Assembly (NCBI GenBank): GCA_019636735.1
Contig: JAHBWY010000008.1
Location: 62,001-126,000 of the forward strand
Origin: Phycisphaeraceae bacterium
GTDB taxonomy: Bacteria > Planctomycetota > Phycisphaerae > Phycisphaerales > SM1A02
Direction: 5' to 3'
DNA: 64,000 bases
Below the pieces are notes generated by a model that was not told the origin of the DNA, made no database searches, and worked only from the letters and a program-made list of their open reading frames with translations. Position numbers and translations under genes: made by a program. This document shows, one piece after another, positions 1 through 43,153 of the stretch; position 1 is the first letter of the stretch, and each line of letters opens with the position of its first letter.

Positions 1-2877
1 GCGGAACACGTCAGGGAATTCGAGTTCCCAGTGGAAGAACCGCAGTGATCCGGCGAGCTCGCGCGCGATGGTGCGCGCGTCTTCGGTCGGCGCGGCGAAC
101 TCGGTCGGGAGCGGACAGTCGTCGATTCGATCACCCGGCCAGAACCAGATCGCGCACCAGAGGTCCAATGCGTCCTTGAGGCGCGTGAACGCTTGCGTCT
201 CGCGGAGCGCCCGAAAGCGGCGCGAGCGTTCGGCCGTTTCATGGACCGGCAACTCGTGCAGCGCGCGCAGGGCACGCTCGGCCTCGTCGTGGGCTGTCGC
301 CACAGCGGCCAGATCGGGCTTGAAGAGCATGTCGGCGCTGTCGATGAAGGCAATGAGGTCGGGCTTGACCACCTTCGACTTCCGCGTCGCGATCGCCTTC
401 GTGAATGCCTCCTTCGCGAAGTGGACGCCGTTGGCGTGGCTCTTGTCGCCGCCTTCGCGCTCCCATGCCATGACCGGGTAGTGCAGGAACTGGTCGAACC
501 AGGCGCCGACGAGCGAGTTGCCGCAGCGCACCTTGTGATCGAGGAACGAGAACGGCAGGTCGCGGTCCATCGTCTCGATCCAGAGGGCGAGTCGGCAGAG
601 TTCGGCTGCGAGCGGATCGAGATCGACGCCGTAGATGCAGCGCTCGACGACATGCCGGCGCAGGACTGCCTTGAGGCGCTCCTCGAAGCGGTCATCCTCG
701 GGGCGACAAGGCAGCTTCTCCTCGCGCAGCGGCTCGGCGCCGTTGTTCGCCGCGTGTGGCGCTGGCAGTCCGAGGATGTCGCGCAGTGGGCGGCCTATAT
801 CGCCCTCGAGGCGCCGGTGGTGCAGGATGGACTGGAAGAGAGCGTCGGTCAGGAACCGCAGCGCCGCGAGCGGGAACGAGCCCGAGCCACACGCCGGATC
901 GCACACCTTGAGCGAGAGAATCTCTTCGGGCCTCTTCGGGACCCACCGGTGCGGAGCAGCGTCGGTGTCGGGTAGGCCGTCGGCGCCTGTCGGCGGATCG
1001 AACGCGAGCGGGCGCAGCGTGCGGTGCACCGTGGGGATGGCGAGCTGCGGCTTGGTATAGAAGGTTCCGGAACCCTTGCGCGTGCCGCCCCAGCGGACGA
1101 GGTACCACTCACGGGGAAGGATGACGCGATCGACGAGCGCGCGTGCGGCACGGGCGAGAGCGGCCTCGTGCTGGAGCTGCCTTTCCGGCGTGAGACGGCC
1201 GCGTGGCTTCGGCACGATCCCCGCAACTTCGCAGGCGCGTCGCGCCCACTGTTCGGCGCGCGAGCGGGTGGTGTGGCGAATGCCCTCGGATGCTTCGGCG
1301 TCGTCCGCAACCTCCGGCTGCTCCTCCTCGGCGGCTGAATCCGACTCGGGGTCGCTGTCCTCGGAGTCCGCTTCGGCCCCGTCATCATCGTCCGCCTCCT
1401 CGGCGGCATCGTCGCCCTCCTCCTCGTCCTCGCTCCCAGCCTGCTTCTTCTGCTTCATCTTCTCGAGGAGCGCCTTCAGCGCGGCATCATCCATCGCCTC
1501 GAGCGTCGCCAGTGGAAGCGCTGGCTGATCGCCCACATTGAGGAAGATGACCGGCTGATCGCCGGGCGCAGCGCGGAGCTCATAGTCGAGTAGGCCCTCG
1601 TAGAGGATGCCGATGTACTCGTTGTCGAGTTCGGAAAAGTTGACCGGCGCTGCGACGAGCGTGCTGGACCGGCCTTGTCGGATGCGCACCTTCGTGCGCG
1701 TCAGCAGATCGAGGATCGCGTGGACATCGCGATCGGGGATGACCTCGGCGTCGAAGCAGTCGGTCTCGAACAGGTGCACCGCACGAGAGACGCCGTCGGC
1801 GGAGGCCGGGTCGCCCGGCTCGAAGAGTTCGCCGCCGTAGCGCGGGACGGGCAGAGCCTCATGGGCGCATCCGTCGTGGATCAGGCGAAAGAGCGCGAGC
1901 AGGTGCGGCCACCCCGAATGACAGCGGGCGAGCCGTGCAGGCGAGCGAACAAACTCGCGCTCGAGCCGATCGCGCAGGCCGCGGACGCTGTAGGCGGTGT
2001 GGTAGATCTCGTTGTCGGCGGGCAGCAGTTCGCGGGACTCGGCAAACAGCGTGACGACGATGCGCATGATCATGCGCACCGCTGCGCGGTACAGATCGGA
2101 CTGATCGATGGCACCGGCTCGTTCGTGCAGCGCCTGCTCGTGCGCCTGGGCAAGGATCTCAACGGCACGGCGAACGCGCTCGCCGAGGATGGCCGAGAGA
2201 TCGGATTGACCCTTGCGGCTGTCAAGGATCGCGCGAAGGAGCGGCGAAGGCTGATCGCGCTCCGGCGGTGTCCAAATCGTCGGGTTCAGGAGTGAGCGAA
2301 GGCCCGTGAGGCGCCGCGAGACGCCGCCCTCCTCGAACCAAGACTCGACATCCCACTCGACGGATGCGTGGAAGTCGATGCCCGCAAAGATAAGCCGCCA
2401 CTGCTCGCCGTTCGTGAGGATGGCGAGACGCTCTCCGCCGGCGCGAAGCCATTGGAGCACCTGGCTGACGGTGCGGCGACCTCGCCCGATTCCGACGCGG
2501 GCGCCAGGCTCAAAGAACACCGGAAGCACAGCGCCGCGCGGTCCACTCCACAAGTGCCGCGGCCGGATCGTCTCGCCCGCCGAGCCGAGGCGCGACCATT
2601 CCGCGGGGACACTCGAACCCCGCTGCCAGGAGCCGTCGCCGCCCGCAAAGCCGCAGACCTTCTCAAGCACGAGGGCGACGAACTCGCCCGTCGAGGCTTC
2701 GCCGCCGTCCTGGCGCGTCGTGACCGCGCGTCGCAGTTCCTGTTCGCGAAACGACGGAAGCGGCTCAGGGTCCTCGGCGACGAGGTCGCGCAGGCGCTGC
2801 ATGTCGAGAAGCAGCCCCTCGTGGCGAAGGTCCTGCCACCAGGCAAGACGATCGATGCTCGACGCTTCGACGGGCAT
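1..2877 (-). CDS. drmMI: DISARM-type adenine-specific DNA methylase DrmMI (3' end outside window)
   Basis: The ATG overlaps the helicase stop codon by one base (TGATG), and the frame stays open for 959 codons to the window edge. The protein has an N-terminal alpha-helical part, an acidic Asp/Glu-rich linker at about residues 481-521, then an Eco57I/DrmMI-like N6-adenine methylase domain. I see KGSGTFYT shortly before SAM motif I, DPACGSGSF (660-668), and later YGVDLDPLAAELCRLALW and DHKVRCGNSLVG, which are typical of this family. The window stops just after FHWELEFPDVF, the segment that usually precedes the catalytic NPPW/NPPY motif, so the catalytic residues are not visible. In class 1 DISARM this enzyme marks host DNA. 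The helicase-methylase order fits, but drmA, drmB and drmC would lie outside, so a stand-alone type IIG-like pair remains possible. Confidence 0.75.
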   Translation of the reverse strand, partial: MPVEASSIDRLAWWQDLRHEGLLLDMQRLRDLVAEDPEPLPSFREQELRRAVTTRQDGGEASTGEFVALVLEKVCGFAGGDGSWQRGSSVPAEWSRLGSAGETIRPRHLWSGPRGAVLPVFFEPGARVGIGRGRRTVSQVLQWLRAGGERLAILTNGEQWRLIFAGIDFHASVEWDVESWFEEGGVSRRLTGLRSLLNPTIWTPPERDQPSPLLRAILDSRKGQSDLSAILGERVRRAVEILAQAHEQALHERAGAIDQSDLYRAAVRMIMRIVVTLFAESRELLPADNEIYHTAYSVRGLRDRLEREFVRSPARLARCHSGWPHLLALFRLIHDGCAHEALPVPRYGGELFEPGDPASADGVSRAVHLFETDCFDAEVIPDRDVHAILDLLTRTKVRIRQGRSSTLVAAPVNFSELDNEYIGILYEGLLDYELRAAPGDQPVIFLNVGDQPALPLATLEAMDDAALKALLEKMKQKKQAGSEDEEEGDDAAEEADDDDGAEADSEDSDPESDSAAEEEQPEVADDAEASEGIRHTTRSRAEQWARRACEVAGIVPKPRGRLTPERQLQHEAALARAARALVDRVILPREWYLVRWGGTRKGSGTFYTKPQLAIPTVHRTLRPLAFDPPTGADGLPDTDAAPHRWVPKRPEEILSLKVCDPACGSGSFPLAALRFLTDALFQSILHHRRLEGDIGRPLRDILGLPAPHAANNGAEPLREEKLPCRPEDDRFEERLKAVLRRHVVERCIYGVDLDPLAAELCRLALWIETMDRDLPFSFLDHKVRCGNSLVGAWFDQFLHYPVMAWEREGGDKSHANGVHFAKEAFTKAIATRKSKVVKPDLIAFIDSADMLFKPDLAAVATAHDEAERALRALHELPVHETAERSRRFRALRETQAFTRLKDALDLWCAIWFWPGDRIDDCPLPTEFAAPTEDARTIARELAGSLRFFHWELEFPDVFR

Positions 2878-32424: not shown

Positions 32425-32609
32425 GGATCACCTCGGTGGGGTCATGGGCGAGCATCCGGCGAGCGCGCTGCTCAGCGGGAAGACTGGGCAGTATGGCGGA
32501 ATGAGTCGATGGGGGCAATTCGCGGAAATCTGGGCTTGTGGCGGGGCGCGCCTGGCCCGCGGCTGACATGAGCCGATCGTGTCGAACCTATCCTGCTCGT
32601 TGGATCACG

Positions 32610-34184
32610 ATGAATTCCCGCCCGCGATCAAGCTCGGATGGACCGCAGATGCCGCTCGACGGTGATCGTCGTGGAGAGGGTGTGGACCCCGACCGGCGTC
32701 CGGTGGTGGGCATCACGATGGGGGACCCCGCCGGGATCGGTGCGGAAGTGCTCGTGAAGGCCTTGGCCGACCTTCGATTGCAGCAGCGCGCGAGGTTCGT
32801 GATATACGGGCAGAACGAGGTGCTCCTCGAAGCGGCCGAGCGAGCGGGGATTCACCCGTTCTGGATGAGAGTCGCGGCGGCCAGTGAGCGGGCGGCGCAG
32901 GGGGTTCTCGTGGAGCCGGTGGTCTATGACTACGACGCGCCGACACTGACCCGAGGACCCGATGGAGTGGCCGCAAGGTCGAAGGTTCACGGGCAGTCGG
33001 GCGACGGCGACACTTCTCGCAGCGCTGGTGATCGGAGCGACGCAGGCTTGCGCGGCGGAAGTGGTCGGGGCGGCGCAGGTGGAGTGGGGTCGGGCGGTGC
33101 ATCGCACACCACGCTTGGCGCGCCGGGAGCGCCTCAGGCGCCGGGAGGGGACGGAGCATCAGGAGCGCCCGGCGCGAGCGGAGCGCCGGGAGCGAGCGGA
33201 GCGCCGGGAGCGAGCGGAGCGCCAAGAGCGCCCGGCGCGAGAGGCGAAACGGGAGCGCCTGGAGCGGGGCGTGGGAGTTCGCGAGCCGTGCCCGGTGGCG
33301 CGCTCGGCGATGTGCTCGGCGGCGCCCCCCGCACAAGTGACGGCAGTTCAGTGGGTGGTTTCAATGGTCCCGGCTTCGATGACACCGGCGGCGCTTCGTC
33401 AGGCAGCGGAGTTGGGCTCTCAGGCCTGCTGCAACGACATGCACCTTCCGCTTTCGGTGGCGTGCTGTCCAAGGCCTTTGTTCAGGATGCGATCACCGAC
33501 GCGCTGCGCCCCCAAGGTGAACGGCGGCGGATTGATGCCATCGTGACCGGTCCGATCAGCAAGGAGAGCTGGGCGATGTGCGGATTCCGGTGGCCGGGTC
33601 ACACGGAGTTGCTCGCGGCGCGCAGTCGTGCGAGGCGTCACCTGATGCTCTTCTGGAGCCGGAAGCTCTGCGTGGCCCTGGCGACCGGCCACATCGGTCT
33701 CGCTGAAGTGGGCGATCATCTGACGATCGGGCGTGTCTTCGATCCCATTGAGATGGGCCATGACTTCCTGCGGAGGCTCGGCGTCAAGCAGCCTCGAATC
33801 GCCGTGTGCGGCGTCAATCCACACGCCGGTGAACATGGACTGTTCGGCAATGACGAAGAGCGCGTGATTCGGCCTGCAATCGAACTGGCGCGGCGGCAGG
33901 GAATCAATGTCCACGGGCCGTTCCCGGGAGACACCATCTTCATCGCCGCGCTGCGCGGGGAGTGGGATCTTGTCGTGGCGATGTATCACGATCAGGGTCT
34001 CATTCCGCTCAAGCTGGTGGCGCGGGATGAAGCGGTCAACTGCACGGTGGGACTCCCATTCGTCCGAACCAGCCCGGACCATGGAACGGCGTTCGACATC
34101 GCCGGTCGGAACACGGCGGATCCGGGAAGCATGCGCTCGGCCATCGAACTCGCGATCCGCCTTGCGACATCCGGGGCCGAGTGA
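32610..34184 (+). CDS. pdxA: 4-hydroxythreonine-4-phosphate dehydrogenase PdxA with collagen-like insertion
   Basis: PdxA makes the amino-ketone precursor of pyridoxal phosphate. The family sequence begins PVVGITMGDPAGIGAE and resumes AFGGVLSKAFVQDAITDAL, DAIVTGPISKESW. Metal ligand motifs GHTELLA, VNPHAGEHG and MYHDQGLIPLK are intact, as is LPFVRTSPDHGTAFDIAGR. Between the two halves lies an in-frame insertion of about 160 residues (32943-33431) of Gly-rich sequence. Its core is a collagen-like Gly-X-Y tract such as GAPGASGAPGASGAP. Total length is about 525 against the usual 330. The ATG at 32610 is one of several possible starts (32568, 32649), none with a clear ribosome site. Confidence 0.88.
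   Translation: MNSRPRSSSDGPQMPLDGDRRGEGVDPDRRPVVGITMGDPAGIGAEVLVKALADLRLQQRARFVIYGQNEVLLEAAERAGIHPFWMRVAAASERAAQGVLVEPVVYDYDAPTLTRGPDGVAARSKVHGQSGDGDTSRSAGDRSDAGLRGGSGRGGAGGVGSGGASHTTLGAPGAPQAPGGDGASGAPGASGAPGASGAPGASGAPRAPGARGETGAPGAGRGSSRAVPGGALGDVLGGAPRTSDGSSVGGFNGPGFDDTGGASSGSGVGLSGLLQRHAPSAFGGVLSKAFVQDAITDALRPQGERRRIDAIVTGPISKESWAMCGFRWPGHTELLAARSRARRHLMLFWSRKLCVALATGHIGLAEVGDHLTIGRVFDPIEMGHDFLRRLGVKQPRIAVCGVNPHAGEHGLFGNDEERVIRPAIELARRQGINVHGPFPGDTIFIAALRGEWDLVVAMYHDQGLIPLKLVARDEAVNCTVGLPFVRTSPDHGTAFDIAGRNTADPGSMRSAIELAIRLATSGAE
33174..33227 (+). repeat. Three tandem 18-base units inside pdxA
   Basis: The unit GCGAGCGGAGCGCCGGGA occurs twice exactly and a third time with two changes. 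It encodes the six-residue unit of the collagen-like GAPGAS tract and suggests growth by repeat slippage. Confidence 0.85.
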
Positions 34185-42950: not shown

Positions 42951-43040
42951 TGATCAGGCTGGATCAGGCTGGATCAGGCTGGATCAGGCTGGATCAGGCT
43001 GGATCAGATTGGATCAGGCTGGATCAGATTGGATCAGGCT
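42951..43040. repeat. Tandem decamer repeat GGATCAGGCT, nine units
   Basis: Nine consecutive 10-base units: one TGATCAGGCT, six GGATCAGGCT and two GGATCAGATT, with no spacer. Degenerate copies continue to about 43140 (GATGATCAGG, CTGATCAGGC). It fills the only long gap (236 bases) inside an otherwise tightly packed operon. The units are shorter than CRISPR repeats and have no spacers. Confidence 0.95.
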
Positions 43041-43153
43041 GGTCAGGGTGAACAGGTTGGTGCAGGTCGGTTCTGGATGATCAGGATGATCAGGCTGATC
43101 AGGCTGATCGGGGAGATGACGGTGGTTCAGGGTGATCGAGGGGTCAGCGTGAA

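Follow-up and report, generated by a model that had tools for sequence, protein, structure and literature searches.

PdxA (4-hydroxythreonine-4-phosphate dehydrogenase) is a tight dimer whose active site lies at the dimer interface (PMC10471632). In bacterial collagen-like proteins the Gly-X-Y triplets number in the tens, and Scl1 has 50 of them together with an adjoining trimerization domain (PMC8968730). The Rickettsia palindromic elements (RPE) described by Ogata et al. (2000, 2002) are, as outlined in the summary of PMC10969869, palindromic, about 150 bp long and present in dozens of copies. The locus described here touches on all three: a pdxA gene in a 64,000-nucleotide stretch of Planctomycetota DNA (the window, ie the whole stretch that was analysed) is enlarged in frame by a Gly-rich segment that contains a short tandem repeat. 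Positions are those of the window unless a contig is named.

The gene lies on the forward strand at 32649..34184 and encodes 511 residues; it was identified from Pfam PF04166, the predicted fold and dN/dS. Its start is uncertain, ATG 32649 being used here with ATG 32610 and GTG 32538 likewise in frame, and the stop-free reading frame extends over 32538-34184. The PF04166 match is 303.8 bits against a curated cut-off of 27 (Pfam), which places the protein in the family; the match covers only the C-terminal 222 profile positions because the extra sequence cuts off the N-terminal part. The C-terminal catalytic part (33438..34181, forward strand), delimited with the invariant columns of an alignment (A1), carries DAIVTGPISK, GHTE, NPHAGE and YHDQG. 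In that alignment H318, H392, H447, K455 and R473 (numbered from 32649) are invariant columns, all present here, and N464 is a nearly invariant one. The metal and substrate residues (the histidines of GHTE, NPHAGE and YHDQG) are all kept in the parts flanking the insert, as the sequence-only reading of this DNA had stated for both sides. An AlphaFold model built from 37 sequences has a core with pLDDT mostly above 90 and shows the PdxA fold: superposition on E. coli PdxA (1ps6) aligned 322 of 328 residues and gave Z 38.5. The flanks are 78% identical to those of the sister species with a dN/dS of 0.12, a rough ratio at a dS of about 1.5, near saturation, and are apparently under purifying selection. 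Since the genome gives a single match to pdxA, a single one to its genomic partner pdxJ, and none to pdxS, ie the context of DXP-dependent vitamin B6 synthesis, this PdxA is most likely the working enzyme of that route, and it is presumably active.

The insertion itself was confirmed as real. From the YDY that closes one strand to the GG ahead of helix LSKAFVQDA, the linker measures 176 residues, compared with 14-21 in 36 aligned relatives. The LGDPxG-type motif and DAIVTGPISK lie 272 residues apart, where the relatives measured typically have 114 (range 72-122). The in-frame, low-complexity insert was placed at 32949..33431 on the forward strand from the linker comparison, pLDDT and composition (G 32%, A 16%, S 13%, P 8%). 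Its net size of about 158 residues bears out the earlier claim of a large Gly-rich insertion of some 160 residues, and its position after the VVYDY strand and before the LSKAFVQDA helix agrees with the loop that had been proposed for it. Residues 109-253 have a pLDDT below 50 and no secondary structure in the single-chain AlphaFold model, and the insert is probably an intrinsically disordered loop. GC by codon position is 0.78/0.79/0.63 in the insert, compared with 0.78/0.47/0.79 and 0.69/0.49/0.74 in the two flanks, and the codons of the PdxA frame score negatively across it (-0.192 log-odds per codon). On these two grounds it looks unlike long-selected coding sequence. The open frame is by itself weak evidence, since in a Markov-1 simulation of the insert one frame was stop-free 24% of the time.

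Within the family PdxA was found in 167 of 181 genomes, as single pieces of approximately 980-1060 nt among the matches listed; among those same matches, the two genomes of the genus, G000 (which contains the window) and its sister species G001, give split matches. Among 297 genomes sampled across the class, G000 has a match spanning 1473 nt, compared with about 970-1080 nt for the fullest others among the matches listed, and in neither survey is any other listed match as long. In G001 pdxA is split between two contig ends, with its N-terminal half on contig 226 and its C-terminal half on contig 29. Both ends encode Pro/Ala/Gly-rich residues, DDAAGPLGAPAVDASPPDRERAAPSHARLQNGGG and GPPPRAAAAGPSSGPSAA, and they share four bases only (AGGG). 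If the contig ends do not overlap, the G001 linker is at least about 35 residues above normal, the insert being incomplete because the assembly breaks at that site. Its visible parts do not align to the G000 insert and are not Gly-X-Y. The insert thus occupies the same site in both species with differing sequences, and therefore the enlargement is a genus trait whose sequence changes fast, in a genus sample of two genomes of which one (G001) is broken at the insert site. In an alignment of PdxA from relatives, a check that had been suggested beforehand, all 36 have the short linker, and the insert is restricted to the genus. It had also been held that relatives with PdxA of normal length would speak against the insert; such relatives were indeed seen, but they date the insert and do not refute it.

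The split PdxA matches of the class survey that were followed up (in an alignment leaving out G206) were mostly due to hydrophilic insertions of about 17-38 aa at other positions, so PdxA loops have grown elsewhere too, and what sets the present case apart is size and site. In another family of the class, the PdxA at G283:C19 (L222) has two loops with nearly the same peptide (KPEARSQKPEEKIES... and KPEARSQKPEEKIEN...), which suggests that a single repeat may have been inserted twice in one gene. In the PdxA at G010:C1:3750378-3750436 (L207), about 19 aa of repeat-like sequence, PGTRNPELGTSSPGTSSP, are inserted near model position 263.

Inside the G000 insert is a tandem-repeat core (33117..33269, forward strand), defined by tandem repeats and exact arrays, with a 9-bp unit, GGAGCGNNN, and an 18-bp higher unit, that encodes (GAP GAS)n-like triplets. 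The Gly-X-Y pattern is there because this DNA unit is read in the PdxA frame. The two arms flanking the core, about 55 aa each, are Gly-rich and not made of GGAGCGNNN units, so that repeat growth directly accounts for only about one third of the insert. No terminal inverted repeats or flanking (target-site) duplication were seen at the insert, the only inverted matches being internal and repeat-derived. In a pattern search, exact (GGAGCGNNN)3 arrays occurred at only two places in the 3.43-Mb genome, pdxA and a gene for an FAD-dependent monooxygenase, and a three-unit array had no match in the sister species.

The monooxygenase gene (G000:C1:454087-455985, reverse strand) was recognised from Pfam FAD_binding_3, whose match is split in two by 73 residues that include HAPTTPVAPIAPIAPHALTAHVAPVAPVAPVAPTP and directly precede GDAAHVHSP. 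At that site there are about 11 residues in the sister species and in other relatives, which lack the insert. From the relatives and the repeat pattern, the in-frame, low-complexity (VAP)n insert amounts to a net of about 62 aa (C1:454870-455088, L164:2371-2589, reverse strand). The GGAGCGNNN unit is sense in pdxA, giving GAP/GAS, and antisense in the monooxygenase, giving VAP. Searching the same genome at DNA level with the PdxA insert turned up a single further significant hit, at C1:454933-455039 (E 6e-5); a search of this kind can overlook diverged copies. This result, and the failure to find inverted ends, speak against a mobile element dispersed in many copies. The stretch of pdxA related as DNA to the monooxygenase insert covers approximately 165 bp (33118..33281, forward strand). 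Local alignment of the two inserts scores 61, compared with a maximum of 56 among 500 dinucleotide shuffles and of 60 among 1000 period-preserving permutations. Under period-9 nulls P ranged from <0.001 to 0.013, the weakest being the 9-bp block permutation (P 0.013). A 13-mer, GCGTGGGAGTTCG, is common to both inserts outside the array. Given these scores and the 13-mer beyond the array, a shared DNA source of the two inserts is likely rather than proven, the alternative being parallel slippage of one same motif at the two genes.

Low-complexity tracts were also surveyed in a 400-kb sample and the window, with a subset checked by Pfam, and most candidates resembled linkers, tails or upstream extensions. 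Tandem RRSSVVG heptapeptides, reflecting a 21-bp DNA repeat at two places, are encoded in open frames around positions 67313 and 103738 of G000:C1, perhaps upstream of the real starts. Sixteen copies of a 10-bp tandem repeat, GATCAGGCTG, whose period is no multiple of 3, lie between predicted genes at 42952-43106 of the window. The protein encoded at 1-2877 (reverse strand) of the window weakly matches methylases of the Eco57I/MmeI type and contains, in its interior, an acidic stretch of low complexity (AGSEDEEEGDDAAEEADDDD...). The long ORF at G000:C1:339079-342615 has an internal, nearly pure poly-Gly tract of more than 30 residues.

The GAP/GAS triplets had been read as a collagen-type tract that could drive trimer contacts. 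The triplets are present: the longest unbroken run is 9, above the expectation from residue shuffles of the insert (mean 4.1, P 0.0017), and PF01391 (Pfam Collagen) is the sole Pfam match of the core. A solved fibril chain with GAP-rich triplets, 8zxl, also aligns with the core, and GAP-rich chains can build fibrils, so the triplets themselves are not forbidden; 8zxl was nevertheless not counted as support, since no single stretch of it does better than E 0.021 and its large whole-sequence score is repeat-driven. The PF01391 score is 16.8 bits for the whole insert and 23.8 bits for the core, both under the cut-off of 27.2. The run is broken twice, by QAP and RAP, leaving at most 15 of 17 triplets and no long uninterrupted repeat, compared with the 50 triplets and trimerization domain of Scl1 (PMC8968730). 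A triple helix needs three chains where known PdxA has two, the visible G001 insert has no Gly-X-Y tract, and residues 109-253 are predicted to be disordered, in a single-chain model which does not test a trimer. A collagen triple helix joining PdxA chains into trimers or higher assemblies is therefore considered very unlikely. Nor does the collagen-type nature of the DNA unit hold up in the monooxygenase, where it yields (VAP)n, not collagen, and the resemblance in PdxA looks like an incidental by-product of the reading frame.

Short tandem repeats are prone to mis-sizing and the G001 assembly breaks exactly at the insert site, as would suit an assembly or sequencing artefact, whether a chimera or a repeat expansion during assembly. 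The frame is maintained, however, through about 480 bases, and because an independent genome of the genus is enlarged at the same site and the repeat core is just about 150 bp within a 139-kb contig, we regard such an origin as extremely improbable. We give equally little credence to the insert having come from another gene, a piece of which would here be read out of frame. Open over 32962-33546, the +1 frame has a signal-peptide-like start and scores 0.078 log-odds per codon against the negative value in the PdxA frame, but GC-rich repeats open several frames, and the +1 peptide has no Pfam match and, itself aside, no convincing relative among ten genomes (best E 0.11). A phage origin was discarded, as no match was found among phage records. 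Somewhat less remote, and still unlikely, is a loop with a selected role other than collagen, ie a disordered tether or binding segment serving, for example, a partner enzyme, localisation or solubility. That both species of the genus carry an insert at this site would fit such a role, whereas the unusual codon-position composition, the lack of sequence conservation between the visible parts in the two species, and the rest of the family being without such an insert (among the matches listed) argue against it.

The insert is probably a nearly neutral loop, disordered and confined to the genus, that was enlarged through tandem-repeat DNA. The functional, single-copy PdxA of the genus would have had a surface-type loop greatly lengthened between the VVYDY strand and the LSKAFVQDA helix, the loop acting as a nearly neutral, intrinsically disordered spacer. 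Besides its neutrality, we infer the route: growth would have taken place at the DNA level, the 9-bp GGAGCGNNN unit being multiplied through slippage and probably copied between loci too. The frame would stay open because the units are multiples of 3 and GC-rich, and the enzyme would tolerate the loop because it is excluded from the fold. Against neutrality, the insert persists in two species at a dS of about 1.5, so the loop may have some use; its sequence is not conserved. Of the three ideas offered in the sequence-only reading, neutral repeat growth and a flexible linker are the best fit, and trimer contacts are not.

A wider proposal, which we put forward only tentatively, is that a non-palindromic short repeat family of this Planctomycetota genus spreads between genes and comes to lie in frame, in one orientation or the other, within loops of enzymes, giving unrelated peptides (GAP/GAS in PdxA, VAP in the FAD monooxygenase). 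It might then be an RPE-like source of disordered segments outside Rickettsia, and presence in frame in unrelated genes was found for these two. If the preferred reading of a repeat-grown, nearly neutral loop is true, a single-copy, probably essential enzyme can bear a loop that is disordered and about half as large as its fold, and a collagen-like peptide can arise merely from the reading frame of a 9-bp DNA repeat. The reversed GGAGCGNNN DNA in the monooxygenase is a direct natural control, and the case is a warning against inferring function from Gly-X-Y tracts in GC-rich genomes. What merits following up is the repeat common to two enzymes in opposite orientation, which is RPE-like in effect, without palindromic ends and so far without the copy number.

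Compared with known systems, the enzyme is like E. coli PdxA (PF04166; 1ps6/1ptm) in its fold, its conserved motifs and its genomic partner pdxJ, and unlike PdxA generally in having 158 extra residues in a loop of 14-21 aa in the aligned relatives. With Scl1/Scl2 and BclA (PF01391) it shares a short Gly-X-Y run without need for hydroxyproline. Those surface proteins, however, have a trimerization domain and triplets numbering from tens to hundreds, whereas here 9 unbroken triplets, under the Pfam cut-off, sit in one loop of a predicted cytosolic and dimeric enzyme. As for the RPE, on the outline given in PMC10969869, short DNA lies in frame inside unrelated metabolic enzymes and is apparently tolerated by the fold, but the repeat of PdxA and the monooxygenase is a non-palindromic 9-bp tandem unit at two loci, with no target-site duplication seen. 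Low-complexity or tandem-repeat loop insertions generally are, like this one, disordered, repeat-bearing, lineage-specific and fast-changing; the present insert differs in being unusually long for PdxA, and in that its GGAGCGNNN unit also occurs in a second enzyme, on the other strand.
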